A stretch of 64,000 nt of DNA from positions 70,157,809-70,221,808 of the forward strand of contig CM068827.1 in the NCBI GenBank assembly GCA_028554795.2. Reading direction: 5' to 3'. Positions 5,899 through 63,349 of the stretch are shown in pieces. Numbering within the stretch: the first letter of the stretch is position 1; each line of letters starts with the position of its first letter. The notes below the pieces were generated by a model, which saw nothing but the letters and a program-made list of their open reading frames with translations, ran no database searches and was not told the origin of the DNA. Source of the stretch: Sinohyriopsis cumingii (taxonomy: Eukaryota; Mollusca; Bivalvia; Unionida; Unionidae). Position numbers and translations under genes: made by a program.

Positions 5899-5949
<51 letters not shown>

Positions 5950-28290: not shown

Positions 28291-30305
28291 GAACGATGCA
28301 CTTTACATTTGACACTTTTTACAATACATTTTTTGCAATCTGTTTAATTTTTCATTATTAATTTCGCTTATTTCACAACTTTTTTACGTTTTATTTTGTA
28401 CAATTTGAACAATTTGACTATCTTTTACAAGTGATTTAATTTCTCTAATATTTGAATTTTTTCATGATTTTAGACACTGCTTTAGTTTTCCAAATACTTT
28501 CCTGTAAGTAATTTTCTAAATTTTAAAGTTTTGACAGCAAGTATTAAAATACCTTTCAGTGTTTAACTTCTTCTTACATTGGGTTAATATGTAAAAAAGT
28601 TATTTATTTCAATTATATATTTTTATTTCTGTTGTAAATTTATAAATGTTCATTCGTTTATAATTTTTTTATAAACTGGCTTTGATTTTTCAAATTATCC
28701 CATCTATTTTTAATATCGTTTTAATTTTTTCAATTTTTGGTACATTTTCAATGTTTTTAAATTATTTTAACAATTTTTATTTTTTAGTTTTATTCAAAGC
28801 AATGTTTTATATGTTGAGCTCGCTATTGTTAAATTTGTTTTCGAATGTGACATTTTCAGAAAACAAAGTAATGTTTCTTCTTATCATTGCTTATAATTTT
28901 TGTTCAATATTTTATTTGTTGTTTTCATATTTTGCTGTAAATGTCTTAATTTTGGCAAATCTCCTTTTTACTTTGAAATTTCTTTTTTGCTTTTAAAATT
29001 TTGTTTTTATATATTTTATTTTTTAAGATGAATTTTTAATTTTGATAACATTTTCGACTTAAGTTGTTTACAAACATATTTGTTCTATTAAGTATATCTA
29101 TGATTTTTGTAACTTCTGGCATATGATTTTGTCTAATTTTTTTAATTTTAATTTATAATTGTAAATTGTAGTGAGTATTTGTAGCTGGATTTGGCGTATA
29201 TGCACAAGGTCTATTTTAAGATAATAAAGAATGTCAAACTGCATATATTCTATAAATAGATGCTTACGTCCGTCTTGACAGCTACTAATAATAGAATCAT
29301 TAGTAAATATGTTTACGAGTTGGGCCATTTTCCTATTGATCAGGTGGTATCTTAGAAGTATTAAGTTCATTCCCATTGGATGGTTTAAATCATGTGAGTT
29401 CTTCTACGGAGTTGGAAATTTCCGATTTGTCACGTAAGTAGTGATGAGGAAATGCGTTTTTAGCTTTTTCGCCTGTATATAAATATCTCGGACTGGAAAG
29501 TTTTCTTATTCTTATTTCTAGGGTTCCTGTTGCAGCATCAAGTTTGCAGACGTATTTATGTTCTACTTAAATGTTATTTAAGAGAAAACATTTATTTGGG
29601 TTGTTCAGTATAAATAAAAAGCACTCATTGAACTATAATATTATTGCAACTATTGTGAATTTATCATATGTGTGCTGGTCAACGTCATTTTGACAAAGTC
29701 ACGATTCTTGGCGGAGCAGGACGTTTCTGGATCTGATATTTATACGGAATATTCCATTCTTTTGGACTTTAATAGAACTTTTTCAGGATTATTTTGGATT
29801 CACTTCATAATACTGTAAGTTATTCTCACATTTTCATTTATAACTTTGATATATAAATTATTTGGTAAGTTTTACAAAACTTCTTGGTTTTGCTTCATTC
29901 TGTTACTTAGTTTATGACCACAGATTTGTAACAATCTTGTATTTGTACATTTTTTTTCGGCATTTGTTTTCGTTTTCGTTTAAGTTGTTGTCAGTGTGAC
30001 TTTTAGTCTAAACCATATTTTGTAACATAATATTCCATGTTGTTGCGTCTAAACTAAATTCAAAAGTTAAATTCACAGCGGAATTAACTCTGGTTACATT
30101 CCCCAGCGAAAATATATTTTAAACTAACACTGACTCAGTAAGAAGAGAAAGGTATTGACTGTTATTGAACAAAGACGCACTTATGATATCAAGGAAACCA
30201 CGCTATTCGTAAAACATAATCGGTGATCGACATTGCATTCGTGGTCTGATTCATATGATTCACCTCCATGTTGCGAATGTGGAGTACAGAAGATGACGCA
30301 AGAGT
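28291..30305. other. T-rich intergenic DNA, no gene seen
   Basis: The plus strand is strongly T-rich from ~28.3 to ~29.2 kb, the mirror of the A-rich stretch at 26 kb. The open frames here are Phe/Leu/Ile-rich by composition. Confidence 0.5.
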
Positions 30306-31285
30306 AGTATATGGGGACGAAATAGGGCAATATAAGATTATATAAAGAAAAAAGAGGGGAGGTTGTACCCTACGGACAAGGAGAATTTAACATGGGTGGG
30401 ATAATCTAGGGTCGATTTGAATTTAACATAGGGAATGCATAGCGACAATGTATTGGATATGTATAGGGACAATGGGAATTTAACATAGGGAATGTATAGC
30501 AACAATGTATTGTGTCTTTCTACGGACAAAAGGAATTTAACATGGGTGGGTCTGTCTATGGACAAGGGAAATTTAACATAGCAATAAGGGATTGGGACTG
30601 TATAGTAGTGACAAGAGAAATTTACCATAGCGACAAAGGATTGGGACTGTCCAGGGTCAATGGGAATTTAACATGGTGGGACTATCTGGAGCACTAGATA
30701 GGAATTGAACATGGTCGGGACTGTATAGGGACAAGGGGAATATGATAGGATGACGTCACGGTACTGGACACTGGGGAAACAATGGCAACAATGTTACAAG
30801 GGGCTAACCTCAATCGAGCGGAGTAGTTAGGAACAGTGTTGCAAGTGGCTGACTGAATATGCGCTACTCTAGGAACGATGGACAAATAGAGACATAGACG
30901 TGTGTGGTGTGACCTGTCTTTTTAACGTAGCTTTAACAATTTGTAGTCATATCGCTGCGATGTCTGCAGTGGGGCAGCCTATAGTGATGTCTAGTACCAT
31001 GAGGCATCATGCCGCATACATTTAGCATCATGTCCCACCCAATCACATTATCCTGACACCAAACCGACCAGGCCTAGCACTAACTAACCTCTTAATGCTG
31101 AACGCCAAGCGAGGCAACTGTTTGTACCAGTTTTATAAGTCTTTAACATGGATGGAACCGTCTAGGAGCAATGGCAATTGAACATGGGACTATCTAGGGA
31201 CAAGGGGACCTTGAACATGCATGGGCCTGTCTAGGGACAATGGGGACATTTGTATAGGGCCTGTCTAGGGACAAGGGTGGTAGAA
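30306..31285 (+). repeat. Left terminal repeat of the palindromic viral element
   Basis: Starts AGTATATGGGGACGAAATAG and GGCAATAT, then CCCTACGGACAAGGAGAATT and many ~45-60 bp subrepeats of the type ACAAGGGGAATTTAACATGG. The reverse complement of 46936-47248 matches this from the first base, block by block. A SINE fragment interrupts it at 30.92-31.14 kb. The AG...CT termini fit Polinton-type ends, but no target-site duplication is evident. Confidence 0.8.
30920..31145 (-). mobile_element. 5'-truncated SINE (family 2) inside the left terminal repeat
   Basis: The reverse complement carries the GGCCTGGTCGG, GTCAGGATAATG, GGGTGGGACATGATG and ATATGACTACAAATTGTTAAA signatures of the 19.2-kb copy, but no tRNA head. 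It is absent from the right terminal repeat, so it landed after the two arms existed. Confidence 0.7.
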
Positions 31286-31456
31286 GGCCAAACACAACAC
31301 AGACAGAGACAGACATATACAAATACAAACACGAGATTTATTTATAAAGCATTACCGAGCCCTGAAATTATGTTGGCGGTGTTCATAAATTTGCATAATT
31401 GTAATGATGCTGTAAATAGCTATAATCAAGGAAAAGACAAACGCCAAGCTGGATGT

Positions 31457-31700
31457 GACTAAAAGCAACACTAAAATTACGAAATTGTCCCAGAAATTAA
31501 CGGAGACTAAATATATCCCGGAACATTATATTTCATATTTTCAGACTAAAAGTAGTACAAAAATTATGACATTATCCCTGATTATAGCGGAGACTGAGAA
31601 AATCTGGAACATTAATGTTCAAATGGCTGTGACTAAAAGTAACGCTAAAATTATGAAATTGTCCCAGAATTTAATGGAGATTAAACATATTATATCAATA
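31457..31700 (+). repeat. Imperfect tandem repeat upstream of the first viral gene
   Basis: Three diverged copies of a ~85-bp unit (ACTAAAAGCAACACTAAAAT and GAAATTGTCCCAGAA). It is open in the frame of the next gene but begins outside it; possibly promoter-associated. Confidence 0.6.
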
Positions 31701-32658
31701 ATGGAATCTCGCACAACTAGATTAGCTCGAGAGCGATTAGAGGCAATTTACAAAAATATATTCCAGTTCGTGATTCTGTCAGACAAAAATTACAAGCGTG
31801 TAAGGAGTATCAGGTGGAATTTGTAGAAGGTGCAGAACAATTATTTAAACTGGTTATAAAGGCTATGGAAGGAGTTACAGACGCTACCAAAGGTCTTCTT
31901 CCTACGTTGGAGCAAACCGCTAGAGCAACTGGAAAAAATAGCAGAAGGAACTAAAAAAAAAAAAGATTTTACCAGAACTTCCAGGTAAAAAAGCTGTTGT
32001 TCAACCACAAGTACACAATTACAAGAAGAAATACAACAAGCACTTGAGACTGTTGATAAAGTTCATGAGGAGGTCGGTGATGTAATGGATCTTGTTACGC
32101 CAAAACCAAACGAAAACCACCAGCCCGATTTACCGAAGAAGGTCTTAGACAACTTCAAGAAAATGCTGTAAGGGCTGCCGCAACAATATATCCAGATCGT
32201 GATAAATTATTAGATCCAAACACCGCCAGTTTTCCAGAAAAAATTGGATTCCATTTTTATTTCGAAAGTCTAGTGATAAATACCTAAAATCACTATAAAA
32301 AAATTATAAGGATGATTTTGCGAAATTTGAGAAACAAGTCGAAGAGGTTAAAAGAAAGTCCTTACTGGGAGTTTTGCCATTCAGCCCACCTCGTATTGAG
32401 GAAGAAGAAGTAATTGGAAGTGGTATTGGTTCAGGTACCAGGGGGAGTGGCCCTTTTACTCCATGTCCTAGCAACGTTCTTGCCGATGTTGAAAGACTAG
32501 AAATACTCATTGGAGGAAAACGAACCGGTAATAATTCCCCAGAAATCATTAATGAAGCAGCTGGTATTTGTCAAGGACCATTTACAGGCGGTTTCATGGA
32601 TATTAATGTTTATCGGTCTCTCATTGATGAAATCGTTGATGATTATCACAGTGATTGA
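31701..32658 (+). pseudogene. Left arm gene 1: virus-like structural protein, broken
   Basis: Begins MESRTTRLARER, which the right arm matches with MESRTARLARER. The frame shifts after about 15 residues. A second piece (EGAEQLFKLVIKAMEG) and a third (RFTEEGLRQLQENAVRAAAT) follow, each in another frame, then a longer intact C-terminal piece at 32374-32658 ending in IINEAAGICQ and DINVYRSLIDEIVDDYHSD. The C-terminal stop is a TGA where the right arm continues with Arg. The N-terminus is basic, the middle helical. I recognise the neighbourhood as that of invertebrate Polinton-like elements but cannot assign a precise virion role. Confidence 0.55.
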
Positions 32659-32692
32659 GGGTATACAATTAGATCAGTGACAAGAAAATAAG

Positions 32693-33145
32693 ATGATTAT
32701 ACATAATGCTCAACGTGGACCTGTAATGGTCAAGGTGATAAAGTCGCGATTACCAATATATAAAGTTACCTACGGAGATGGACTCGGTGATGTTGTTCAG
32801 GGTCTATTTGGAAGGATAGCTCCAAAAGCAATACTGATTGCAAAGCAACTGGGAATGAAAGCTATTGATGTTGTTCGTGATAAAGGTATTGGTGTTGTTT
32901 GTGATGTTGCCAGTAAAGCATTCTCATCAATCAAGGAAAGACTAGCATAATTAATACGACGAAAACCGCAGCCAGTAAAATTACTCCGCACCGAGGTTAT
33001 GCCTCCAAATGTTAGTAAAATAATAAATCAAGCTGCAAATCAAAATCTAGAAGAGTTGACTGGTGTACCCATGTCAGAAAAAGAAAAAGAAAAAAGAATA
33101 ACTGCTAGTCTGATAGCAGGAAGTGGTCTTCGTGTTAGACAATAA
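32693..33145 (+). pseudogene. Left arm gene 2: small basic core-like protein, split by a stop
   Basis: The first piece (32693-32950, 85 residues) has a Gly/Val-rich start (YGDGLGDVVQGLFGRIAPKA) and a basic helical end; the second (ATG at 32999, end 33145, 48 residues) follows in frame after one TAA. In the right arm this junction is open, but there the stop lies elsewhere, so the two copies decayed independently. Small size, basic character and position next to the capsid gene suggest a DNA-binding or minor virion protein, as in adenovirus-like gene orders; this is inference. Confidence 0.5.
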
Positions 33146-33158
33146 CAATTATAATAAA

Positions 33159-34366
33159 ATGTTCAAACGTGTATCTGGTCCAGCATTTGACATGGATGCG
33201 CCAGTGCTCAAAGATGAATCTGTGCACGATTATCAATACTATTCTTATTCTACCTGGCTTTGTTAACATTGGTATTATGGCATTCTTTAAAAGTGCCATA
33301 TGAATGATTGATGGAAAACCCATTGAATCATGCCTGAAAACTTATTGCTACGACGATACTTGGCCTTGCAAGATACAGCGATGATTACATAAAATCAGCT
33401 ATTCCGTCAATGATGTTTGCGAAGGATACATCTGATCATCCAGAAGACAGAAACGTGAGAATGAATGCAGCTGGAACTGAAGTTGCATCAATGAATGAAA
33501 ATCACAACGTAGCTCAATGCTAAATGATGAAGAAGAATTTTCATGTATGATTCCACTATCACAAATATTTGGATTTTGTAGACATGTCAGAAAGGTTATT
33601 TTTTGGAGCCGAGCATACATTTGTGCTTGTTAGAAAAGACAACGACAATGATGCAATCTGGCGACCCGACGCAATTGGTGCGTGTATAGTAAGACTAACA
33701 AAACTTTCGTTGTGGATGCCAGTAATGACTCCATCATTCGATGAAGAACAACAGTTACTCTCTTTTATGAGTCAGGGTGGTAGATCATCATTGACATGGT
33801 TGACGATGACAACAGACAGTGTTCAAAGTGAAGTTGTTGGTTTATTTACATAACATACAGCATCACAGCAGAGTGTTTCTGCACCCCGGCATATATTTAT
33901 TGCATTTCAGGGAAATGCACGAGAAAACATACAAACACGAAATCCAATGCTATTTGACATTCTTGGAGTTAGTGAAGTTTCTTTAAGGATAAATGGACAT
34001 CAGGAACCATCCGAAAAAGTATTACTGAGGTTTGATCACAATCATGTAGCACGTGCTTATCATCGGTTGATGACATTCATGGGTAGTGATCAGAATGTTG
34101 ATTCTGGTTTATATACATCTCGGCGTGATTTTACAACGTTGTATCCAATCTATTATTTTTCATTGAAACATTTACAGTTACTCAGGCAATATGTCTTTGA
34201 TATACACTTCCTAGCTCGTGTAGCACGATCATCACCAAGTAGACCTACACCAGTTATTCCTGGTGGTTATAGAGCAATTGTTGTTATACTCTCAGATAAC
34301 GCAATGTTGCTTGAATGTGTTGGTGGACGAATGAGAGTCATTGATGCCCCAGTAGAAAACATGTAA
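33159..34366 (+). pseudogene. Left arm gene 3: major-capsid-like protein (double jelly-roll candidate), broken
   Basis: The N-terminal third is scrambled by frameshifts (MFKRVSGPAF at 33159, then FVNIGIMAFFKSA in another frame). From 33569 a clean frame runs to 34366 with a single internal TAA at 33851. Recognisable blocks are RLFFGAEHTFVLVRKDNDND, LTKLSLWMPVMTPS, FTTLYPIYYFSL and YRAIVVILSDNAMLLECVGG. I recognise this as the family annotated in invertebrates as F54H12.2-like, whose gene context and length fit a double jelly-roll capsid protein. The right arm keeps the N-terminal half instead. Confidence in homology is good; the capsid fold is inferred. Confidence 0.6.
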
Positions 34367-34377
34367 TTAAATCGCTC

Positions 34378-34770
34378 ATGATATTTATAATGTCATATCA
34401 TCATGTTAGTATCAGACTGACTCATGGTCAGATTAAAAAACTACAATCAGTATCAATAAAGAATTCTGGATCAAAAATAATAGTAAAGAAAGATCAGATC
34501 AGAGGTAGTCAAAATAAAATATCACTGACTGAACGTCAACTCAAGCACTTTAATAACGCCAAACGATCAAATATTGGTGTTAAATTTGATCTTTCTGCGG
34601 ATGCCATTAAAGAAGCAGTTAAAACAGGTTGTATATTTCCATTTCTTGCAGCTATACCAGCGTTAATAGCGTTAATTGCCGCTGTGGCTCCAGCTGTTGC
34701 AAAAGCAGCTGCACTTGGTGCTGCTGGAGCTGCTGATAAAAAGTTAAATATAAAAAACTTCAGAGGTGTT
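34378..34770 (+). pseudogene. Left arm gene 4: membrane-active minor capsid-like protein
   Basis: Starts at ATG 34378. The N-terminal ~80 residues repeat a pattern of short Gly/Lys-rich segments, each ending in a hydrophobic-polar strand (LTHGQIKKLQS, LTERQLKHFNNA, FDLSADAIKEAV). After a Cys there is a long hydrophobic Ala-rich segment (PFLAAIPALIALIAAVAPAV) and a Gly/Ala helix. This layout resembles the pVI/pX-type minor proteins next to capsid genes in adenovirus-like elements. The frame runs on to 34896 over the next gene, which looks like loss of the proper stop. Absent from the right arm. Confidence 0.5.
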
Positions 34771-34772
34771 TT

Positions 34773-34919
34773 ATGCGTGATCAATTACCGAAAAAACCAA
34801 ACAATTTTGAAACAGGAATTATTAATCTTGACAAAAGTTCCGATCCATGTAGCCATTTTGATTCGTGTGGGTTGGCACCACCAAAAGAACTTTTAAATTA
34901 CGTAAACACCATAAAAACT
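34773..34919 (+). pseudogene. Left arm gene 5: adenovirus-type cysteine protease, N-terminal remnant
   Basis: ATG at 34773. The sequence has MRDQLP, then ETGIINLD and HFDSCGLAPPKELLNYV, the spaced landmarks of the adenain-like proteases carried by Polintons and adenoviruses. The segment that should hold the catalytic His (the GTHW-type motif) is missing between NLD and FDS, and everything after the first third, including the catalytic Cys, is gone. Certainly inactive. Its reading frame runs on into unrelated downstream sequence to 35183. No protease sequence is seen in the right arm. Confidence 0.6.
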
Positions 34920-35183
34920 CCAGTATGGTATTCAACATTACCAGCACAGACAATAACCGATCTGCCAATATGCGGGCGTGAAACAATTGCTGTACTTACA
35001 ACATTTACGATGTCTACCACAATTTCACGGCGTTGTCCACTCATGACTCCGTCAGGTGGATCTCCTAGATATATGCTAGTGATGTTGGAGCGAAACGACA
35101 AGGAAACATTTGTAGTGGAACCCGATGAAAACCCGATTTATTATTGGTGTCTTGAATCATTCGCTAAATTCCCATCCACTTAA
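34920..35183 (+). pseudogene. Left arm gene 6: C-terminal part of a fibre-like or surface protein
   Basis: In frame with the protease remnant, but homologous to right-arm sequence that follows the fibre-like repeat there (ISRRCPLMTPSGGSPRYM here, ISRHYPLLTPSSGSPGFM there). So the left arm has probably lost the fibre N-terminus in a deletion that fused this tail to the protease. Ends YYWCLESFAKFPST. Confidence 0.45.
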
Positions 35184-35189
35184 AATATA

Positions 35190-35640
35190 ATGAGCATTCC
35201 GATCAACATTCAGCGTTTTAGATACAATCAGGCACGTCAATGGCTAACCAAACTGAAAAATATCGTTCACGAGTATACAATAAAAGTAACAAACATTGCA
35301 GACGTGTAGCTGTTGTTGACATAATTGTGTATTCGGAGTCTGCTGTTATCGCTGGAACAGTTGTATTGATATCAACAATAACAATGACATCTCCAGCAAT
35401 TATAACAATTTGTTTATCAAATACAACAAAAATTGCTGCTCATCTTAATCTCATCGCAAAAAATATGTATAAATAAAAATACAAAACTGCATGATTCTTT
35501 ATTCAAACTTCATACATCAGTGCTGGCTTATTATGTGTTATCTTCGTTATTGACATCGAGTCTCGGCGATGGAATAATATCCGATTTTGTAAATTTACAC
35601 AGATGATTGGAATTTACAAAGATGCAATGACTGTGATAGA
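35190..35640 (+). pseudogene. Left arm gene 7: small membrane protein, frameshifted
   Basis: ATG at 35190 (MSIPINIQRFRYNQARQW); after ~40 residues the frame ends, and the homologous sequence continues in another frame to 35476 with two hydrophobic segments (VIAGTVVLISTITM, SPAIITICLSN). A further frame at ~35545-35600 retains a GDGIISD motif, matched by SDGIISDAEF in the right arm. Two membrane helices plus a soluble C-terminal helix pair; the right-arm copy has the same plan. Precise role unknown. Confidence 0.5.
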
Positions 35641-35657
35641 ATCTACGTCTGATTTAA

Positions 35658-35722
35658 ATAATAATAATAATAATAATAATAACAATAACAATAATAATTA
35701 TAACTATAATAATAATAATAGT
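35658..35722 (+). repeat. (AAT)n tract in the left arm
   Basis: AAT/AAC units that would encode poly-Asn; the mirrored right-arm tract is at 43258-43311. Confidence 0.9.
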
Positions 35723-35759
35723 GTCAACCTCGAACGAGTTATCACAGCAGATTGTCGTT

Positions 35760-36904
35760 AATACAACCCCGTCAAGAACAACGATGATAATCTAAAATAG
35801 CTATCACTGTTCACGAACCAACATTATAAGCTGCGATAGAAATATATTCGCAAGATTATTCTGTAGATATTTATCAATCATCAATCAGAATTGTGTTAGG
35901 ATGGCCAGAAATTCCGCATGTTCATCAAGGACCACCAGAACCACAACGCGACGAATTCTTCACAGACAAGAAAATATGCTTAAAGGATCCAGAATATCGA
36001 AAAATATATCCATGGAATAGTGGATATCATCATTTTGAATTTGATGAAAAAGTTTCTGGCTAACCAAAAGTTTTACCTACAACCAAAAATGTTGTTGGAG
36101 TTCCTTCTATCCTACCAGAAGATTTATTTAATTTTTCTGAAACTCCTAACTAAGACTTTATTAATTTATGTGCTAAAAGAATTAAAAACAAACATCAAAT
36201 TATATTTAATTTATTTTCTAGTGTCATACAATACAACAATAACGACTTAAAACAACAAAATGTTGAAACAATACAACATTTTAATCAAGTTACAGCAGAC
36301 CTTGAGTATGTCAATTTAGTTATTACTGAGTCTTTAATCTTCGGACGATATAGATTTACGAGTAAACCCCGGAAACAATTATTTGCTGAACATTATAAAA
36401 TAACCGAAGCAGAATTACCAACATTCGTAATACGAGAATTTAGAACCGACGAACTAAAAAATATCAGTCAACGATCTTATCAATGAAAACTTTCCAAATA
36501 TTGTTGAGTCATGTAGAAAAATAGCCCCACCAGAAATTATTCTCAAACATAACAAAAATCCGTACGTTGGAGGTCGTCATATTTCACCAGGAATTGTTAA
36601 TATACCATCAATAATTTTAGTTAATCTTGTATGTAATGCAATTGGCGGCAGCTATCAAATCGATCTTGAAAAATCAAATCAGGCTCAGGAAGGATATATT
36701 CTGTATGCATTTACGCCTCAAGTACCTCCTGGATATTTGATTGTACGAGAGTCTATTAATCCGGTTTATCTACGTTGTCATAATCCGCTATTATCAAGGA
36801 TACATTTCAAGCTTATTGACCAATCCGGATACTTGCTTGATTTGAGACAGGTAGATCCGAAAATAAATTTGTATATGAGATCAAATCTTCCCGTTCTTGA
36901 TTGA
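35760..36904 (+). pseudogene. Left arm gene 8: large penton-like structural protein, near-complete but broken
   Basis: One frame runs from ~35770 to 36483 with only a few stops, then a -1/+2 shift, then a clean frame to TGA at 36902. Blocks include YQSSIRIVLGWPEIP, the middle helical region around YNNNDLKQQNVETIQ, YVGGRHISPGIVNIPS, and a C-terminal beta-rich end (LRCHNPLLSRIHFKLIDQSG, YLLDLRQV). The right arm reads the same blocks. A large late protein downstream of the capsid gene with a beta-strand C-terminus suggests a penton or vertex protein; this role is inference. Confidence 0.5.
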
Positions 36905-37744
36905 TATTCAATCCTGGTTCATAATCAGGGGAAATAAAATATATATAACAATTTTTTTACTGATTCTCAATCAGATTTAGGTATATGATATTCAAAATAA
37001 CAAAAATCAGACAGATTTTATCATTGATGACGTAAAATGATACTCAAAGTAACGAAAATTAGTTAGATTTTAAAATTGTATAGGTATATTACCCATAATT
37101 TTTCAGATTATCAAACAATTATATCGAATTCACGGGTATATTAGCCAATTAAATCAGATTATCAAATAATTTCATCAAATTGGCGGTGTAATTAATACTT
37201 AAAGTAATAAAAATCTCAGAAAAATTAAAAAATTACATAAAATAGTAATAATTTCATTCTAGAACTTGTAAAGGAACAATCAATATAGCATAACAAAATG
37301 TATTTTTTACTGATTCTCGTCCAGATTTCAGGTAAATGATACTTAAAATCATGAAAGTCAGTCAGATTTTAAAATTTGATGGGTGAATGGTACTTAAAAT
37401 AAAAAAATTAGTTAAATTTTATAATTTGATGGGGTGAATGGTACTTAAAAAATTTTAAAACAGTCAGATCTTAAAATTTGATGGGGTATATGGTGCTTAA
37501 GATAATAAAAATCGCATCGGAAACAGAAAATTACATAAAAAATATTATTTTCAGAATCAGAATAAATATTATTATCAGAATAAATATTATAATCTTGTTC
37601 TTCACTGAATCTCAAACTTGATAGGGTGAATGGTACTTAATGTCATGAAAATTAGTCATATATTGTAATTTGATAGGTCGAATGATACTCGTAAACAGAA
37701 AAATGCATAAATTTTGCAATTGTTTGATGCATAACAGTTTCACC
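36905..37744 (+). repeat. AT-rich ~55-60 bp tandem repeats, left arm
   Basis: Degenerate copies of GATGGGGTGAATGGTACTTA followed by AAATAATGAAAATCAGTCAG and ATTTTAAAATTT. The reverse complement of 41225-41750 is the same array. Genes from both sides converge here, so it may hold termination or replication signals. Confidence 0.75.
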
Positions 37745-40700
<2,956 letters not shown>

Positions 40701-40873
40701 GTAAATATTTTTTGTATTCTAAATAATATTTACTTTATAATGAATTACGAAAATCTGATGAATTAAATCCTGAGAAAATTATTTGTGATTTTGAATCACT
40801 GCAACAACGAAAATTTTAAGATAGATATACACTATCAGCAAAATATATATTCATAAAGCTCATTCAACAAGCT

Positions 40874-41200
40874 ATGTTCCAATCCTTGGCTACGGTCAAA
40901 GATAACGAAGTTGACAAATTCGTATATCTCTCACGCGCGATTGAAAATATTAGATCAGAATTATCCCACGAAACAAAAAATACAATTAGCACTCGTATCA
41001 GACAATTAAGAAAGATTATGTCTGATCGTGAAAACGAAAACAGTGACAAAGTCATTACTGATTATGAAAGTGAAAGTACTGTCAGTGACTGTATTAACAA
41101 CGTCACTAAAGGGGATTGTGAAAGTGAAAGTAGTGACAATGAACGTTACGAAGTTATGGCAACTGGGGCTCCTGTCGCTCGTGATTGTGAAAATGAATAA
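40874..41200 (+). CDS. Unassigned 108-residue acidic ORF in the right arm
   Basis: ATG start, no internal stops, unlike all the virus-like genes around it. The N-terminal half is a charged helix (IENIRSELSHETKNTISTR, RQLRKI). The C-terminal half is acidic with two ESES motifs and ends VARDCENE. It reads outward like the HNH gene and has no match in the left arm. Downstream (41218) the DNA returns to the mirrored repeats. No family recognised; it could be a younger acquired gene or a chance frame. Confidence 0.4.
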   Translation: MFQSLATVKDNEVDKFVYLSRAIENIRSELSHETKNTISTRIRQLRKIMSDRENENSDKVITDYESESTVSDCINNVTKGDCESESSDNERYEVMATGAPVARDCENE

Positions 41201-41224
41201 TTATCCTTGACTTTGTCAAGGGAT

Positions 41225-41750
41225 TCAGATTTATTTTTATTCTGATTATAATATTTATTCAAAATATAATATTTATTATGTTATTTTTCTGTTTTCATTA
41301 AGATTTTTATTATTTTAGTATTATTTGCTCCATTTAATTATGAAATCAGTCCTATAGTTATTATTTTAGGTACCATTTACCCCATCAAATTATGAAATCA
41401 GAGTCCTATAATTATTATTTTTAGGATCATTTACCCCATCAAATTCAATAATTAGTGAAGAATAAGATTTATTTTTTATTCTGATAATAATATTTATTCG
41501 GATTATAAAATTTATTCTGATAATAGTATTTATTCTGATAATAATATTCGTTATGTAATTTTCCGTTTTCAGTAGGATTTTCACAATTACGAGTACCATT
41601 CACCCTATCAAATTATAAAATCTGACTGATTTTCAAAATTACGAGTACCATTCACTCTATCAAATTATAAAATCTGACTGATTTTCATTATTTTAAGTAT
41701 TTGAAATCTGGACGAGAATTAGTAAAAATAAAATTCTGTTATAAAATATT
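41225..41750 (-). repeat. AT-rich ~55-60 bp tandem repeats, right arm
   Basis: Reverse-complement match of 36905-37744, with the same GATAGGGTGAATGGTACT core and interspersed ATAATATTTATTCTGAT units. Confidence 0.75.
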
Positions 41751-41875
41751 TATTTGCTTCTTGGCTTTCAAATGTGAAATTATTCTTATTATGTAATTTT
41801 TTTAATTATTTTTTTATGAGATTTCATTATTTTGAGTAATATGATCTTAAAATCCTTAAGATCTTACATACAGAT

Positions 41876-43215
41876 TCAAAATGCAAAAGTAACATTGAAA
41901 TGTATCATTGATATTAACAGATTATGACATCGCAAATAGACCGGATTAATAGGTTCTTGTACAATCAAAAATCCAGGAGTTACTTGAGGAGTAAATGTAC
42001 ATAAAATATATCCTTGTTGAGCCAGGCTGGATTTTTCAAGATCAACTTGATAACTGCCATCGATTGCATCACATACAAGATTGAGTGCGATCGTTGATGT
42101 GATATTTACAATTACTGGTGAAATATGACGACCGCAACCATATGGATCATTATTATGTTTGAAAATATTTGCTGGTGGGGCTATTTTTTTCCATGATTTG
42201 ACGATTTTAGGATAATATTTACTGATAAGATCGTTGACTGATTTCTTCAGCTCATCTGTGGCAAATCCTGGTACTATGAATATTGCTAATTGTTCTTCTG
42301 TGATCGCGTAGTGTCGTAGAAATAACTGGTTAAATGTTTTTACGTTGAGGGTATGGAGGAATTTGATATATTACATGATCACCACATTCAAAAACATTTG
42401 CAACGATCTACATATTGATAAACTCTAGGTCTGATACAACCTGGTTTAGATGATCGGTTGCTTTATATCATCGTTGTAATGTGCAACACTGGAAAATAAC
42501 TTTTGTAGTTTATTAATTACTCGTTTATGTTCAGACTTAATGACGTCCGGAAATGATTTGATTTTTTTATCGTCGATGAAAAATTTATTTTCCTCCTCTA
42601 TATCTTGTAAACCGTTTATATCTAATAATTAAGGATGTCTTGTGTCATCAGGATCAGTAACATAATCGTATATATTTGTTATGTTCCATGGATGAGTTTT
42701 TCGATACTCTGGAAGTTTATTAAATATTTTCTTATCCGTTAGGAAATCATCTATTTTTGGTTCTAACGTTCCTTGATATTTTGGCGGGATTTCTGGCCAT
42801 CCTAATACTGTTCGGATTGACGACTGATATATATCTACAGCATAATCTAGCGAATTTATTTATATCGCAGCTAATAATGTTGGTTCGTGAATAGTGATAG
42901 CTATTTTAGATTCTTTTCTGTATAAGACTTGATTCTGCGCTGAAATTCGTCGTTGATCTGTTCAATTTTATAAATACCTGTAGGTACGCCGACAACTTGC
43001 CATCAGGAGTTCCATCATCTTTATTTTTATTTGCAAATACAAGCGAATTATATGCCTTTACTCAACCGAATGATTTTGATCTGATATTTGGCCAGCTGTA
43101 AATATACTCGTAATTATGCTAGCACTATTTCTTTCGCTGGAATTGCAGTTGGAAAATTAACACTAAATTCAGGATTAGTCGAACGTGCTGATATCATCGT
43201 GGTTTTCAACGGAGT
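41876..43215 (-). pseudogene. Right arm gene 8: penton-like structural protein, broken
   Basis: On the reverse strand, blocks shared with the left arm are YQSSIRTVLGWPEIP, YRKTHPWN, ISKYYPKIVKSWKKIAPPA, GRHISPVIVNIT and LRCHNLLISMIHFN, ending at a TGA at 41876. Several frameshifts and stops at positions different from the left arm. The region around KIDDFLTDKKIF is better preserved here; the C-terminal strands are better preserved on the left. Confidence 0.5.
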
Positions 43216-43257
43216 TGTATCAACGATAATCTGTTGTAGTAATTCGTTTGGCGTTGA

Positions 43258-43309
<52 letters not shown>

Positions 43310-43311
43310 TT
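43258..43311 (+). repeat. (ATT)n tract, right arm
   Basis: Encodes poly-Asn (17 residues) on the reverse strand, between the membrane-protein and penton-like genes; mirrors 35658-35722. Confidence 0.95.
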
Positions 43312-43800
43312 CTAAATCCTGATTATTCGGATCTTGTGTAGTGCCTTCGCGGGAAATTTTAATCATCTCGGTAAACTCGGCGTCTGAAATTATTCCATCG
43401 CTACAGCCTGAGGATATTAACAAAGATAATTTGGATTACAATGTTGTTGCAGTATGTAGTTTTATCATATATTCGTGTAATTTTGTATTTGTGCATGTTG
43501 ATATTTTCTTCACAATAATATTGAGAATTACAGCAATTGTTGTTGCGGCTGAAACACAAATCGTTACAACTATTGGTGATGTCATTGTTATTGTTGATAG
43601 TAATACGCCTGTTCCAGCAATAACAGCGGACACAGAATAAAAACTTATATCAATGGCAATTATGCGTCTGGTTTTTTTAATTACTTTTATTGCATATTCA
43701 TTAATGATATTTTTTGGTTTTGTTTGACATTCACGTACTTGATTATATCTATAATGTTGTGCTGCAACATAACCTTGAATGTTGATCGGAAGGCTCGTTT
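43312..43800 (-). pseudogene. Right arm gene 7: small membrane protein, broken
   Basis: Reverse strand: two hydrophobic helices (SAVIAGTGVLLSTITMTSPI, VVTICVSAATTIAVILNIIV), a basic stretch (KKISTCTNTK), then after a frameshift SDGIISDAEFTEMIKISREG leading into the poly-Asn. The same plan as 35190-35640, with the helices better kept here. Confidence 0.55.
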
Positions 43801-44180
43801 TTTAATCAGGTGGGAATTTATATACTAATTCAAGACACCAGTAGTAAATCAAGCCAGGTTTCCTCGTCGTTTTGCTCCAACATCAATAGCATAAATCCAG
43901 GAGAACCACTTGACGGAGTCAGGAGTGGATAGTGCCGTGAAATTGCAGTAGATATTATAAATGTTATATCACTGGAAGGATGTATTTCTTCGTTATAGCG
44001 TCATTGTCTGATCCTGGTTCTCCAAGATCAGTAATTTTTTTATTAGACATATTGAGTGAACCAGTCATTGTATCACCGGATTTTTGTACTCGACCACGAA
44101 TAATATCTAATATCGTTGGCATAATAACACCGGGTTTAATTTGTTCATTACTATCAAATACAGCTATGCCCGTTGTTCTT
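43801..44180 (-). pseudogene. Right arm fibre-like repeat protein fragment
   Basis: Reverse strand, readable from ~44180 to a TAA at 43964: VIMPTILDIIRGRVQ, then SGDTMTGSLNMSNKKITDLG and EPGSDNDAITKKYI. The pattern GDTMTG-x-L-x-M-x-x-x-x-I-x-x-L, followed by P...D.A.TKKYI, is the trimeric shaft repeat of phage and virus tail-fibre proteins. A further piece after it in another frame (ISRHYPLLTPSSGSPGFM) matches the left arm tail at 34920-35183. It abuts the broken capsid gene through a deletion that removed the capsid C-terminus, the minor protein and the protease. Confidence 0.55.
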
Positions 44181-44219
44181 CAGAGAGTGATGGTGACATT
44201 ACTGGCATCCACAACGAAA

Positions 44220-45020
44220 GGTTTGTCAGTGTCACATTTCCATGAAGTGCTGCGGTTGCAGTAGCATCAACTCCTTCAGCATGCCAGATAGCTTCGTCTT
44301 TCGTGGATTTTCAAACGAGAACAACTGTATGTTTTGCCCAGAAGATAACCTTTCTAATATTTCTGCAGAAACCAATGCTATATGACAGTGGTATTGCACA
44401 ACTAAATCTTTTCTGAGCATCAATTTGATTTTTACGTGCTGAGAATCCCAGATTAAAATTTGCATTTACAAAGAATAAACTTTCAACATCAGCGTCGTAA
44501 GCTGCAGCAGTAACCTTTTTGGGGCGCCGAAAAGTATAAGGTCTGTCATCAGTGCGATTAACGGTATCTTTTGCAAATATCATTGACGGACCAGAAGACC
44601 GTGAAAAGTCACCGCTGTATCGGGATAACCCTAATATCGTCGTATCAACATCAACATCATTATGACAAATCTCAATTTCCCGACCATCATTAACATATCG
44701 TGCACTGTTAAATAATGCCATAATTAGGTTATTAACAAACCCACCCTGCGCATCAACATATGGATTATTATCATTTTTTTACAAGTCTACCCTGAACTTA
44801 TATGAATGTCTCGGCGGGCATGAAATATTTGCTTGTATCCTGAACTTGTAGTTCAGTTCGTCCACGCTGATTTGGCTCTCGTGCTTCATAAGAATATTAC
44901 TGATAATCACGCACAGACTAGTCTTTGAGAACTGGCGCATATATGTCAAATGCTGGATCAGATATGCATTTGAACATTTTATTATAATTATTATCGTTTA
45001 ATACGAACATCAGTTCGAGA
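44220..45020 (-). pseudogene. Right arm gene 3: major-capsid-like protein, N-terminal half
   Basis: Reverse strand: MFKCISDPAFD near 45015, GRTELQVQDTSKYFMP, FVNNLIMALFNSARYVNDG, TTILGLSRYSGDFS, FNLGFSARKNQIDA, FSCAIPLSYSIGFCRNIRKV, then LTNLSLWMPVMSPSLSEEQ. The longest uninterrupted frame is 44311-44721. It stops where the left arm continues with the C-terminal half, so the two arms keep complementary halves. Frame breaks at ~44840 and ~44310. Confidence 0.6.
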
Positions 45021-45049
45021 AATTCCATTTCCAGTATTCAGACTAGCGG

Positions 45050-45454
45050 TTATATGTTTTGTTCTTTTTCTGACAGTGGTACACCAGCCAACTCTGCTAG
45101 TTTTTTATTTGCAGTTTGATTTATTATTTTACTGACATTTGCAGGCATAATTTCGGTGCTGGGTAATTTTACTGGTTGTGGTTTTCGTCGTATTAATCGT
45201 GCTAATCTATCTTTGATTGCTCAGAATGATTTACCTGCAATATCACCAACAGCACCAATACCTTTTCCACGAACAACGTCAATAGCTTTCATTCGCAGTT
45301 GCTTTGCAGTCGGTATTGCTTTTGGGGCTATCCTTTTGAATAGACCCTCAACAACATCACTGAGTCCATTTCCATGGGTAACTTTATAGGTAAGTAATCG
45401 CGAATATATTATTCTGGCCATTACATGTCCACGCTGAGCATTATGTATGATCAT
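45050..45454 (-). pseudogene. Right arm gene 2: small basic core-like protein, broken
   Basis: Starts MIIHNAQRGHVM at 45454 (left arm MIIHNAQRGPVM). One TGA at ~45220 splits it; the frame then continues through LIRRKPQPVKLPSTEIMP and ANVSKIINQTANKKLAEL. The left arm is intact at the TGA site but has its own stop 15 codons later. Confidence 0.55.
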
Positions 45455-45461
45455 CTTAATT

Positions 45462-46638
45462 TACTGTCACTGATCTAATTACAAAACCTCGATCACTGTG
45501 ATAATCATCAACGATTTCATCGATGAGAGACCGATAAACATTATTGTCCATGATACCGCCTGTAAATAATCGTTGACCAATACCAGCTGCCTCATTAATG
45601 ATTTCTGGGGAATTATTACCGGCTCGTCTTCCATCAGTCAGAATTTCTATTCGTTCAACATCGGCAATAATGTTATTGGGACAGAGTTCATCAAGGCCAC
45701 TTCCAGATTTTTCAGTTACTTGCTGTAGATTTTCAATTTTTTCTTAAGACATTTTTTTTTTGGTTTACTTTCCCTGATATTTCTTTTATACGTTTTTGTT
45801 TTATTGGTTGTTGTAGTTTATATAATTATTCTTCTGTTTTATAGATTTTTTCAGCAAGACCATCTCTAGTTTTTTCTTTCCTACTTGGTGAACGTAATTC
45901 CCTCCTTCGTCTAATTTCTTAAAATTCAATATCTTCTTCTTGCCTTTGTTTTCTTTTTTGTTTAGCACCTTTAAGTTTCAACTTTACTCCTCTTTGTTTC
46001 CTTTCTGCTTTTGATTCTTCAAGTTGCTGCTTTATTTCTTCTTCTCATTCTCTCCTTTCTTGTCTTACTTGTTCAATATACTCATCTACTTTCTGGTCAA
46101 AGATTTCAAAATTACGAATATCTTCCTCAGATCTGATTTGCGGAATATCAGTAGTGATGCGATATATATAATTTCTCCAACTGAGATATTTTAGAGTTTC
46201 CAACATGTTCGGGTTTTACATACTTATCTCTATTACGATATGCAAACGCGGAAATATCAGTTAATTGGTTTGGGTCTTTGATAGCGGTAATACCATTAGT
46301 CGTGAATTTATCTATAATGTTAATTCTACCTCTTGGCAGAGGTTGTAGTTCTTCAGGTTGTGGTTGAGGAGGTTGCTGGGGTGGTGGTAGAGCTGCTTGA
46401 ATACAGCCAGCAATATCACCAGGCAATGTTTCAAGAGCTCTTTGAGTCGCCTCAGCTGCTCTAACAATTTTCTTTGTTGGTTCGACAATTGGTTTAAACA
46501 TTTTTTCTGCACCACTGAAAATTCAACCTGAGATTCTTGACGAGCTTGTAATTTTTGTTTGACAGAATCACGGACGGGGATATATTTCTTAACTGGCTCT
46601 ATTCGCTCTCGAGCTAATCTAGCTGTGCGAGATTCCAT
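45462..46638 (-). pseudogene. Right arm gene 1: virus-like structural protein, broken
   Basis: Starts MESRTARLARERIEPVKKYI at 46638. A frameshift follows near 46505, then a clean frame to 46148 with a Pro/Gln-rich segment (ALPPPQQPPQPQPEELQP). A Lys/Glu/Arg-rich stretch with many stops follows (~46140-45750), and the C-terminal SPEIINEA and DNNVYRSLIDE motifs end it near 45462. The Pro-rich and charged middle is not clearly seen in the left arm, so the left copy may have an internal deletion. Confidence 0.55.
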
Positions 46639-46701
46639 TTTTAGCGTACAATCACACATTATTATTTTACATTATTGATGATTTAATTACTCACACATTT
46701 A

Positions 46702-46935
46702 TAGCAGCAGGGAGGGTGCGACCACAAATAAGTGTCACAGTGGGTAAACAAAACACATACTTGTTGAAAACAAACGACAAAGTAACAAAATGAGCTAACC
46801 CAATCAGAGGACATCTCGGTCAGTTAGAGGCTTAGGGTTGACGTTATTGACCTTATAGTTTTCATTTTCATAGGAAGCTTTATTTTTGCGAATGGACTTG
46901 TCTAAAAAGTGGCCTGTTCACCCTCCCTGCTGCTA
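46702..46935. mobile_element. MITE with perfect 17-bp inverted repeats in the right arm
   Basis: Begins TAGCAGCAGGGAGGGTG and ends with its exact reverse complement. 234 bp, non-coding. Sits between the terminal repeat and gene 1 in the right arm only. TA-rich flanks make the target duplication unclear (TA or TTA). Confidence 0.7.
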
Positions 46936-47248
46936 TTTCCCTTGTCCCTAGACAGGCCCACCCATGTTAAATTCCCCTTGTCCGTAAACAGACCCAATAC
47001 ATGGTTGTTATACATTCCCTATGTTAAATTCCCATTGTCCCTGTACAGGCCCAGCCATGTTAAACATTCCCTATGTTAAATTCCCATTGTCCCTATACAT
47101 ATCCAATGCATTATCGTTATACAGTCCCTATGTTAAATTCCGATTGACCCTAGAGTATCCCACCCATGTTAAATTCCCCTTGTCCGTAGGGTACAACCCC
47201 CTTTTTCTTTATTTAAACTCATATTGCCCTATTTCGTTCCCATATACT
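46936..47248 (-). repeat. Right terminal repeat of the palindromic viral element
   Basis: Same subrepeats as the left end in reverse (TTAAATTCCCCTTGTCCGTA, TTAAATTCCCATTGTCCC), ending CCCATATACT at 47248, the mirror of AGTATATGGG at 30306. Confidence 0.85.
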
Positions 47249-48448
47249 ATTCGCAAGTATTTTCCCGTTCATCCCTTACCCTTGCTCAAAGATAGAAGAA
47301 TTTAGCCATGCAGCATTATGCCCACGCCTCTCTTTGCAACTGCAACCACACCACATCCCCTTCACATATATATACAAACCTGTGTCCCGTCCCACCTCGA
47401 ACATTTACAACCAAATTCCCAAACCGTTGTCCAAGGACTATTTAAACTGTATCGCAGTTTGTAGTTTACCTCAAACGGTGTTACAGGAGTTGAATGACAT
47501 TACATATGAACACGCATGTTCAGAGAGCCGAACAACACCTAGCGGTCATTTATCAATCCACGCGTTTTAAGGGATGATTGCTACGTGGTAGCGTGGTAGA
47601 TATATGATAATGTCGCAAGGCAAAGGTGCGGCAAGGTAACTATTGCCAGCAATGTGCTTTGTAAGTTTACCGACGATTGCAGTTTCATGATTTCAAGATT
47701 TAGTTATTTACTCATTGTTCTCAAAGATGTAGTTGTTTACTCATTTTTTCTCAAAACTCCATAAGGGTACAATAAATTAAAACTCTCGGGACAAAAATAG
47801 CATGGTATATATAACAAAAATCTAATCAAAATTCGTGGAGTAATCTGCCTGAGAACTGTACTGCCCACCGACTATTCACGTATGACTGTTCAGAGAGATG
47901 TGTTTACTTAACTATAAGCAGGGATGTAGAGAGCGATCACGGGCCCTGGAGTAAGAAACACCTAGGCCTCTCCTAGTTCTTGTTCAAATTAAAAATTTAT
48001 TTTATAAAATTAAAGTGTTGTTCAGCCCGGGCCCCGGTACGGGCTTGGGCATCGGGGATATATCCCCGGTACCCTCCCACCTTGTCGGCCCTCGGCATAT
48101 GTATGTATTGAAATCGGCCACCATCAATTTCTGTAACAAGGTTAACTATATATGTTGATACTTACTGATGGGCAGTCGGCTAAATGCAAACAAGGACCAT
48201 ATAATATGTCTTATTTGTGTCATATATTTGAAGTGATTAATTCTACAAGCCCAAAGACGTTGGCAAGATTGTCAGCTACTTAAACAAACGAATGCACACT
48301 TAAATAATAAACAATATTTGGAAAAAGTTTCCACTGATAAAAATATCACATACTTCTTTAATTTTTTGCCAAGGTACCATAATTATGAACTGCATTAGTT
48401 TTATCAGAATTATACAACCCAGTAATCACGAATGCAAACAATCTACTG
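47249..48448. other. Intergenic DNA, no gene seen
   Basis: A GC-rich patch at ~48020-48095 (GGGCCCCGGTACGGGC) may be an old inserted element, but I cannot define ends. Confidence 0.45.
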
Positions 48449-48632: not shown

Positions 48633-50289
48633 ATCTACTGCCACCTTTTGTAACTTTAAGATTAAGAAAAAGCAGACTGTATGATAAGTACATACTTTTA
48701 TGGATTGATCTCATTCCTAATATTTGCATATTTGTACAGTACTTCTTTATATAATGTTTTCGCTACAGCTCTACAGTCCGTTTTAAATTTTATATATATA
48801 TATATATGACAAATGTGCATGGCCGGATCTGTATCAAATTACTTACGTAGAGGAATATTCTTATATTTTCATTTGATGTAATCTTTACAGCGCATATGAA
48901 ATTAATCCCCTCTCTAACTTAAATAATAATATATATATATATATATATAAATCACTGCTCAACAAAAGAAATCAACTTTTCTCAAGACCTTAATCAGAAA
49001 CATTTTTCTTTTCCTGAATCGTCTACACCACTACATTTGCTGGTTATATCGACTAATAACGAGTTGAGGTTTATACACCTCCTCCAGACCCCCAGTTTCG
49101 AACACATGCATAATAAATAGTTTCGCCTTGTCAAGTATGGCGGCCGTGTTATGAGCACGGGCCAATGAAAAGCGTTATTTATAGCATCCAGTGGTTTAAG
49201 GCTGTTTCATCAGTGTAGTGGTTATGAACCACAAGAAACTGTATTCTGTATTATTTTGAATGTGCATGTCTACCCAAACAGTCATCGGACAGAAAGAAGT
49301 CGGCGGAAGGGTAGAGGCTCACTTTCAAATTTGAACTCCAACCGACCTACGGTGTGGGCCCAGAACTTATTCAGGTAAGTGATTGCCAATATATAATAGA
49401 GTGAAATGTTACATAATAATTTCATCTCTAGGTGAAGCGGTATTTTTATTTCCCGGAAAGATTGTATTGGCTTTTGAAACATTCGCACAGTACCCGCGGG
49501 ACCAGTTTTGTTTAATATGATTATATCTGCAATTTGATTTAAATAGGTCTTCTGTTGAGTGACGTGTAATTTTATCCAATGTGTTCAGGTTGCAGTGAAT
49601 GGTACCTGCACCGCATCCATTTGACGGCAGACGACAACAATTCAATTACCCAAAGCGTGTCAGAAAATGGTTTTTATTATGGCTGTAGATCAAATACGAT
49701 AAAACGTGAAATGTGTTGTGATAAAGGAAATTTGTTTTTAAAAAAAGTAGAAAACGTCGGTATAGAGATAAAAACAATACCGCGTTTCTGTTTTTCGTGG
49801 TTGGTGCATGAGTAATCGATCCTCTCCCTATGTACAATGAAAATGTTAAAATCTCAATGTACTTGTCGTGTGACGAGAGAGAGAGAGAGATTCTGTTCAT
49901 AAGCATGAAAATCTGTCAGATACTAGAATAGCTATGGCACTATCATATAATAGCTCTTGAAAAATATATATTTATTGTTTAGTGTTGTCAACAATGGTCT
50001 ACGACATTAATGAAGCTGAGTGGAATTGCTTAACTTCGCCAGATTCCTAAAAATGCTTGTCCTGCGTCCATGATCATGATTTTGTTTTCTACTTTACAGC
50101 CATATCATCTTGTAAGAAATAGTACATCAGTATATCCCACATATTCATTTTTAGTTCAGATTGATGCACTTACTACGCATGCAGTGTACATGTGCAGTTA
50201 CTATGCATGTATTGCACATGAACCAATTAAATCGTACATTAAAAAAAAAATGACACAGTATGCCAGTCGATTTGTAGTTGAATTTGTTA
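48633..50289. other. Intergenic DNA, no gene seen
   Basis: Two short (TA)n tracts at ~48792-48808 and ~48930-48948 and a (GA)n at ~49877-49890. The frames are short and unsupported. Confidence 0.45.
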
Positions 50290-50528
50290 TGGGTTTATAA
50301 CGCCAGTTTTCAGCACATGGTAGACTTATACATGGCGGCCAGTATACCTGGTGAAAGAAGAACCAGGCAGAACCCAAGGAAGAACCACCGACCCATGGGA
50401 TGCTACTGGCATGCTTTCTTACATATCCACGTTGACTGAGCCTGAGACTCGAACCTAAGCGAACAGAGGTGAGATGTCAGTGATCCGTAAAGGCGAGCGC
50501 CTTGACCACTCGGCCGCCTGGGGCTCCA
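50290..50528 (-). mobile_element. tRNA-derived SINE (family 1), reverse
   Basis: Read in reverse: GGAGCCCCAGGCGGCCGAGT head, GAGTCTCAGGCTC, body, GGCGTTATAAACCC end. Confidence 0.8.
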
Positions 50529-50844
50529 AAGTCGATATGTAGTTTGTTCCTTTAAATCAATATTGTACATTTATTTTTCGTACTCTGCTAAAGTAAAATG
50601 CAATTCCTGTATGACAATTTACTACACTGTACATAACAGCTCTATTAGCCATAAAAACAATAAACCCGATCGATAAGCGATACTTGTATGGTAAATATTT
50701 ATTTAGTGACATGTCCTAACTAATATTGTCAAGGCGTTTTCTTGCCACCATATATCATGTGTCCTATTCCATTACTTACATTTGTAATTACATCTCACCC
50801 CCATACTTCCGCATTTGTTTGATTTTTTATTGTTTTTGTTGTTG

Positions 50845-51057
50845 TTTTAGGTTAAACGCCATTATTCAGCGTATGATAGCTATACATTGCGGCCAGTATA
50901 ACTGGTGGTGGAAGAACCTCCCAAACTAAGGAAAGTTAATGGCAAACTTTTTCACATACCCACATTGGCCGAGCCTGAGACTCCAACCCAGGCGGACAGA
51001 GGTGATCTTGCAGTGATTGGTAAAGGCGAGCGCTTCAGACCACTCGGCTACCCGAGC
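50845..51057 (-). mobile_element. tRNA-derived SINE (family 1), reverse, diverged
   Basis: Read in reverse: CTCGGGTAGCCGAGTGGTCT, B box GGGTTGGAGTCTCAG, body, GGCGTTTAACC then (CAA)n. Second copy within 550 bp of the previous one, same orientation. Confidence 0.8.
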
Positions 51058-62844: not shown

Positions 62845-63051
62845 TGGGGATGACGAGTGGTTAACGGCGCTCGCGTTTACAGATCACTATCATTTTCCCT
62901 TTCTCCGCGTGGTTTCTAGCCTCTAATTGGCGAACGTGGATATATGAGAACACTTGCCAGTAGATTCGATTGGGTTGGTGGTCCTTCCCGGGTTTTTATC
63001 TGGGGTTTTTTCCCCACTAGATCTGATCGCCATGTATAGCCTATTATTTGT

Positions 63052-63052
<1 letters not shown>
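62845..63052 (+). mobile_element. tRNA-derived SINE (family 1), diverged, forward
   Basis: GACGAGTGGTTAACGGCGCT head and body to CCATGTATAGCCTATTATT, then (TA)n. The B box region (CGTGGTTTCTAGCC) is decayed. Confidence 0.7.

Positions 63053-63117
<65 letters not shown>
63053..63117 (+). repeat. (TA)n between two inverted SINEs
   Basis: About 32 TA units. Confidence 0.97.
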
Positions 63118-63127
<10 letters not shown>

Positions 63128-63277
63128 AGTGTTTAACGCCATTTTTCAGCACACGATAGGCTATACATGGCGGCCAGTATTAATGGTGGAGGAAGAACCC
63201 GGGAAATCCCCAGAAAGAACCACCGACCCTCGAGAAGCTACTGGAAAGCTTTCTCACATACCCACATTGGCCGAATC

Positions 63278-63279
<2 letters not shown>
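63118..63279 (-). mobile_element. tRNA-derived SINE (family 1), reverse, head-truncated
   Basis: Read in reverse: GGATTCGGCCAATGTGGGTA, body, GGCGTTAAACAC and (CAA)n. It faces the previous copy tail to tail across the (TA)n. Confidence 0.8.

Positions 63280-63349
<70 letters not shown>
63280..63349 (+). repeat. (TA)n microsatellite replacing the SINE head
   Basis: About 35 TA units, starting exactly where the tRNA head of the reverse SINE should be. Confidence 0.97.

Follow-up and report, generated by a model that had tools for sequence, protein, structure and literature searches.

A 17-kb palindromic virus-like locus in the Sinohyriopsis cumingii genome is most likely a nested composite of three mobile elements

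Introduction

In the excerpted definition of PMC11071296, adintoviruses carry a PolB with an N-terminal OTU-like domain, an rve integrase with a C-terminal chromodomain and a Hexon of the double jelly roll type recognized by BLASTp to reference sequences, with a Penton in most genomes. For polinton-like viruses, the excerpted text of PMC12220804 reports duplications of 5–6 bp and nested retrotransposons. Among the titles and abstract openings retrieved on Polintons, adintoviruses and palindromes, no palindromic Polinton is described. Here we study a 64,000-nucleotide stretch of the genome of the bivalve Sinohyriopsis cumingii (hereafter the window, to which all plain coordinates refer), where an original prediction had placed a single palindromic, Polinton/adintovirus-like endogenous element of 17 kb at 30306–47248, with the same terminal repeat at both ends, the same ordered gene set reading inwards from each of them, an HNH gene on the opposite strand, and a (TA)n centre. 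The locus very probably consists of three nested and decayed mobile elements and is not one palindromic virus: an outer transposon, B, encloses two truncated elements of a virus-like family, A, which make up a left (L) and a right (R) arm (these element and arm labels were coined in this analysis).

The A elements resemble adintoviruses and Polintons (Mavericks) in their inverted terminal repeats of ~250 bp, their 5-bp duplications, their genes for double-jelly-roll capsid, penton-like, DUF5679 and HNH proteins, and a putative integrase-like piece. They differ from them in that neither a PolB domain nor an integrase was demonstrated in the A copies read, and in that the locus consists of two truncated copies. 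The combination of terminal inverted repeats with a 5–6 bp duplication that marks Polintons/Mavericks was found in two of two A elements (AAGCT and TTCCC) and in two of two B elements (CGCAAG and CACATT). As in nested transposable-element composites, one element lies inside another, with its own ends, and the copies are truncated and degraded; what sets this locus apart is that its two inner elements lie in opposite orientations on either side of a (TA)n tract and thereby mimic a 17-kb palindrome. With fold-back or inverted-duplication palindromes the locus shares a large inverted repeat around a short centre, but its arms come from different subfamilies.

Structure and limits of the inverted locus

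In a self-comparison of the window, an antidiagonal runs from 30302/47252 inwards to the (TA)n tract at about 38380–38526, and comparison of one arm with the other shows that 30303–38379 and 47251–38527 are mirrored in blocks that are 62–82% identical, whereas five out of five shuffles of one arm yielded no match. This confirms a real, old inverted structure, and the first description of its gene order, terminal repeat, opposite-strand HNH gene and (TA)n centre holds. The predicted extent was right in outline; after a 3-base shift of its left end, the outer element spans 30303–47251, with termini AGTAGTATATGG (left) and AATAGTATATGG (right) that are both abutted by CGCAAG. The left copy of this target-site duplication of B (30297–30302) is flush with the left terminus and the right copy lies at 47252–47257. 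A flush 6-bp match has a chance of about 1 in 4096 per offset, and the pair implies that both outer ends belong to one locus. Taking CGCAAG as proof that a palindrome was inserted in a single step was dropped, because native A ends lie inside the outer repeat (see below).

The two arms do carry their genes in the same order, but neither is a complete copy of the set. The right arm lacks ~1.2 kb corresponding to 33752–34997 of the left arm (the 3′ part of the capsid gene and a small hydrophobic protein), the gap being filled by ~200 bases of other sequence. The left arm lacks its native end and also ~2.1–2.4 kb corresponding to the right arm from 39136 to about 41300–41590, including a NUMOD-like part. 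The ~200 bases of the right arm that have no left-arm counterpart (43968–44167) match the A element C2 (see below) at 92%, out of order, and are probably a dispersed repeat.

Native A elements and the separate transposon B

The genome searched comprises 2.90 Gb, and each search scored the ~40 strongest among thousands of loosely preselected candidates (loci, elements and contigs are cited by our own handles). Matches, including the query itself, numbered 40 for the right-arm capsid (40 scored of 2221 loose candidates), 41 for HNH (40 candidates scored of 3199) and 42 for the left-arm capsid (40 of 6518). Coming from the best-scored candidates, these figures imply that family A has at least ~40 copies, and perhaps far more.

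Copies read elsewhere reveal where A natively ends. In the element C6 (L069 4974 to L070 6301; 13.6 kb, covered without gap by L069, L011 and L070), similarity to the right arm stops exactly at the base matching window 46935, and the far end, 13.6 kb away, is an inverted copy of window 46678–46935. The ends of C6 read AGCAGC and AGCAAC and are bordered by a flush 5-bp duplication, AAGCT. C6 contains one HNH gene and one capsid gene; its second half (~5 kb), similar to the window only in a microsatellite, encodes, besides a weak HNH-like piece, a DUF5679 protein (E 1.3e-7) and, in a further open reading frame (ORF), a putative integrase-like product. Among the copies read, the left arm is closest to a second element, C2 (L071 2853 to L072 6176; 10.3 kb, internally deleted, duplication TTCCC), whose end corresponds to window 46934. 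Since the native ends of C6 and C2 fall inside the outer repeat of the window, this repeat is not A's own. A single palindromic element would have native ends on both sides, and the native end here is the internal one at 46935. The search for single-arm copies elsewhere in the genome, proposed with the original prediction, did find them, C6 with its one HNH and one capsid among them. Moreover, when 30 HNH loci were read together with their 1.5-kb flanks, a mirrored HNH turned up in the window's own locus but in none of the other 29; as far as sampled, the head-to-head order is confined to this one locus.

The outer repeat belongs to B. Its left copy (30303–31690, + strand) is minisatellite-like and matches both ends of another B copy, L077 (30438–30899 at 84% and 31144–31551 at 83–85%); a dispersed repeat has inserted in it at ~30919–31144, of which 30920–31144 matches window 19235–19452. 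The outer part of the right copy (46936–47251, − strand), interrupted by the A terminus, pairs with 30303–30621, with differences in 40 of 296 columns. A search with the outer repeat gave at least 60 matches, including itself and its partner end. L077 has ends AGTAGTTAA (AGTAGT), a flush 6-bp duplication, CACATT, and terminal repeats of ~1.1 kb that match window 30438–31551, and it has no match to A genes, which shows that B exists as a transposon separate from A.

Among the matches scored, both contacts between B and A are peculiar to this locus. A query across 46935 gave 46 matches, six of them inside the composite; the other 40 comprise 33 on the A side, 7 on the B side and none that spans the junction, 33 of the 40 beginning near that base. 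Across 31680 there were 41 matches, and the 40 other than the query itself are divided between the A side (36) and the B side (4), again without any spanning match. Here the A-side matches start at 31675–31696 and the B-side ones end by 31697, so that a short overlap at the junction lies below resolution. As far as scored, therefore, both B/A junctions are private to the window copy.

Two observations on family A concern other loci. On two small contigs, C46 and C270 (L003–L008), capsid copies of the right-arm type recur every 372–441 kb, those of L003–L007 being identical over 573 bp, a spacing that looks like a megabase tandem repeat. On contig C2 (63716160-63717067), A terminal repeats face each other ~0.9 kb apart, like a short derivative of A of the miniature inverted-repeat transposable element type.

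Two subfamilies and a shared spacer

The left arm (31680–38379, + strand) is a truncated A element of the L subfamily, 86–89% identical to C2; its native terminal ~250–290 bp and its replication/integration half are missing. The right arm (38527–46935, − strand) belongs to the R subfamily of A and retains a single intact native terminus, at 46935, as judged from C6 and from a tree of the capsid N-part. The 39 rows of this tree (35 different) comprise both arms, L070, 7 of 8 right-capsid loci and 29 of 30 left-capsid loci (the self locus being omitted from each set); any other locus with a capsid match below 380 columns was dropped, so the rows are not a random sample. In it, L040 groups with the left arm (98/91), the right arm falls in a clade of nine rows (100/100), and a tree in which the arms are held together is rejected (approximately unbiased test, p-AU 3e-6). 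A single palindromic element would make the arms mutual nearest relatives; judged from their sequences, they are members of different subfamilies and not copies of each other, which, together with the 29 unmirrored HNH loci, contradicts the original prediction of one palindromic element.

The (TA)n centre (38380–38526) lies in an AT-rich spacer adjoining HNH, and tracts of (TA)12 or longer stand at the same spot in 9 of the 29 other HNH loci, with 1.19 runs per kb in the spacer against 0.031 elsewhere in these loci. In many of the 29, HNH is preceded by such an AT-rich spacer and then by a stretch that is alike between loci, without family match, which is putatively the start of an opposite-strand PolB gene. 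A (TA)n tract reads the same on both strands, so that two such tracts in inverted elements can align like direct repeats. Elsewhere in the genome, at C119:552344-560107 (L078), two PolB copies face in opposite directions; their inner arms share 99% identity over 304 bases and are separated by ~0.8 kb of other sequence, which includes a 94% direct repeat. Head-to-head pairs of near-identical elements can thus occur in this genome.

Origin of the locus

From the three components, the native A ends, the separate existence of B, the different subfamilies of the arms, the junctions unshared among the scored matches and the native-spacer position of the (TA)n centre, we infer the following order of events. 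The first to insert would have been B, with its long terminal repeats, AGTAGT-type ends and 6-bp duplication. Next, the right terminal repeat of B would have received an A element of the R subfamily, whose outer end remains intact at 46935, and a second one, of the L subfamily, would have inserted in the opposite orientation. A deletion between the (TA)n tracts of the same native spacer may have removed both replication/integration halves between the HNH genes, leaving two structural halves head to head, and another deletion (31680–31697) may have fused the left repeat of B to the L element and removed the terminus of the latter. Together, these steps account for the locus as observed.

Several points weigh against this nested origin. 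For neither A insertion does the window contain a second copy of the duplication, and the insertion order is not directly readable at the locus. The deletion step rests on the position and enrichment of the (TA)n tracts; (TA)12+ is absent from the spacer in 20 of the other 29 loci, and in 11 of the 29 the position of the spot was extrapolated by 41–154 bases. Both arms join within the native HNH-side spacer, of which the left arm keeps ~45 bases more. Finally, penton and HNH matches were not found in the C2 element, so that the native A layout rests on C6 and the HNH loci.

Another possibility is that two related A genomes, replicating in one cell, became fused in head-to-head orientation through their (TA)n spacers outside the chromosome and integrated into B as a unit, the left terminus being deleted later. 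This would require no more events than nested insertion and agrees with the single intact A terminus at 46935 and with both arms stopping in the same native spacer, but it has to face the absence of mirrored HNH among the 29 other loci, the origin of the arms in well-separated subfamilies, and the lack of an intact far end or duplication. We regard it as unlikely. Palindromic defective adenovirus genomes are known, and by analogy co-replicating adintovirus-like subfamilies might have recombined at (TA)n into a symmetric chimera, an animal counterpart of those genomes, a view that we hold to be slightly more doubtful still. If the joining did take place outside the chromosome, the locus would preserve, as a fossil, a recombination event that linked virus-like genomes head to head.

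Far less probable is that a single element, when it inserted or later, turned itself into a palindrome by copy-back or inverted duplication, its arms decaying thereafter. The arms are indeed colinear around a simple-repeat centre, and over 32443–33248 they differ by ~17–18% (9–23% substitutions per 100-column block), without codon-position bias in the two left-arm ORFs counted; differences in the basic-protein ORF are even across codon positions (15/13/15). Nevertheless, the capsid tree, in which the arms are not sisters, refutes self-duplication for that segment. Over 32415–33248 the left arm is nearer to C2 (88.6%) than it is to the right arm (82.3%, 32443–33248), and the mean divergence of the arms is greater than that of the outer B repeats. 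Many other blocks differ by ~20–50%, and capsid and penton differ more and lean towards third positions, with counts of 58/52/72 in the capsid N-part (142 codons) and 97/73/116 in the penton N-part (left 35782–36522 versus right 42919–42194; 233 codons); the penton piece 36458–36815 alone gives 20/18/32 (p 0.08). This lean, which is modest and includes frameshifted stretches, is the pattern that would be expected of genes under selection. Dating of the arms by neutral decay was abandoned, the divergence being mosaic.

An assembly artefact joining two unrelated loci at (TA)n also has very little probability: the join is a simple repeat of ~146 bp, judged from the assembly alone, but the outer ends have the terminal repeat in common and the same 6 bp lie flush against each of them, as expected only for one locus. 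That the native genome of the family is palindromic, for which nothing speaks beyond this locus, merits next to no credence, because C6 carries a single HNH and a single capsid gene and has a second half of different content, and the unmirrored state of 29 of 29 other HNH loci refutes it for the sampled copies.

Gene content of the arms and of family A

The genes of the arms look like the structural genes of a Polinton/adintovirus-like element. Small, partly basic proteins, putatively of structural type, are encoded by left-arm ORF pieces at 32299–32658 and 32681–32950 (+ strand; ~83% to the right arm); the ORF list and the arm comparison place their right-arm counterparts at 45059–45704 and a further right-arm ORF at 46148–46522 (both − strand). 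The left-arm capsid pieces (33255–34366, + strand), of the double jelly roll type and frameshifted, match PF21738 under the cut-off (E 0.019 and 8.6e-4), as does the N-terminal capsid piece of the right arm (44155–44778, − strand; E 3.5e-4). The left piece 33854–34366 has 21 environmental relatives, 50–75% identical, 10 of which bear a precomputed PF21738 assignment. A small left-arm protein with a hydrophobic alanine-rich stretch (34345–34896, + strand), without counterpart in the right arm, has 30 relatives (best E 1.8e-33), one of them from the freshwater mussel Potamilus streckersoni. The piece at 34740–35183 (+ strand) is a putative adenain-like protease; searches gave this no support, Pfam returning only the unrelated DKCLD under the cut-off (E 0.0026), PDB a best E of 0.48 and NCBIfam nothing.

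Pieces of a hydrophobic, membrane-like protein (35222–35788, + strand) align to 43723–43193 of the right arm. They are followed by penton-like pieces (35789–36904, + strand), the counterpart of those at 41876–42912 of the right arm (− strand), of which 41876–42370 has four environmental relatives (P0031–P0034, best E 4e-56). The penton identity of these pieces is putative, and a PDB profile search with the gene found no credible match (best E 0.27). HNH remains in the left arm (37655–38287, − strand) are 75% identical to the right-arm HNH region (38640–39318, + strand), which includes a NUMOD1-like part. HNH is weak in the window (HNH_3 E 0.21 only on the left; NUMOD1 E 0.034, under the cut-off, on the right), but a relative in the genome, L038, matches HNH_3 clearly (E 4e-9).

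The capsid and penton-like relatives thus uphold the virus-like character assigned to these genes by the original prediction, and no cellular family, the outcome it named as contrary, was found for the capsid-like blocks. Other searches were less informative: IMG/VR scans with the left capsid piece, the left penton piece and alignments A2, A1 and A4 (five of eight scans) gave no relatives, nor did a scan of prokaryote genomes with alignment A4; the best PHROGs match (2.3e-4) was to a family of unknown function, and NCBIfam gave one weak match (E 0.012). A PDB sequence match to a chromatin-remodelling protein (E 9e-4), the sole match of that search, was not taken as kin.

Among the 17 ORF pieces of the palindrome that were scanned, none has a Pfam match to a polymerase or integrase. 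In family A elsewhere, pieces adjoining HNH (L069:8286-8543, L069:9286-9672, L014, L019, L024 and L036) putatively resemble the N-terminal region of PolB and have no Pfam matches. Likewise, the putative integrase-like pieces L069:6898-7146 and L033:3226-3618 have none in Pfam, and L033 none in PDB or NCBIfam either. A packaging ATPase is hinted at by Pox_A32 at L010:3021-3362 (E 0.0054, under the cut-off). PF03175 (DNA_pol_B_2) is abundant genome-wide, yet no match to it is listed in the C6 or C2 A elements. The genome-wide PF03175 matches, at least 150 from 75 scored candidates, many of them in stop-free frames of ~1360 aa, and 0 in 14 control genomes, apparently represent a separate, young expansion of Polinton type.

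Other features of the window

Positions 1–2374 contain B-like subterminal repeats and ACTACT at 2369–2374, and are probably the end of another element. Within them, a histone 3′ untranslated region stem-loop (2087–2132; Rfam RF00032, 35.6 bits, cut-off 34) lies downstream of a 203-aa ORF (1456–2064) for which no credible family match was found; such a histone-type 3′ end would be unexpected for a gene of a transposon. The window also contains a TRIM-like ORF with RING and B-box domains (59326–60423) and a dispersed short repeat resembling short interspersed elements, on both strands, at 5656–5902, 13136–13372, 50284–51047 and 62854–63280.

Implications

Ordinary nested insertions can produce a convincing ‘palindromic virus’, and claims of this kind can be checked by means of native ends, arm phylogeny and junction uniqueness. 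The 2.90-Gb genome of this bivalve harbours a multicopy family of capsid-bearing elements, whose self-complementary (TA)n spacers are places where inverted elements may fuse.

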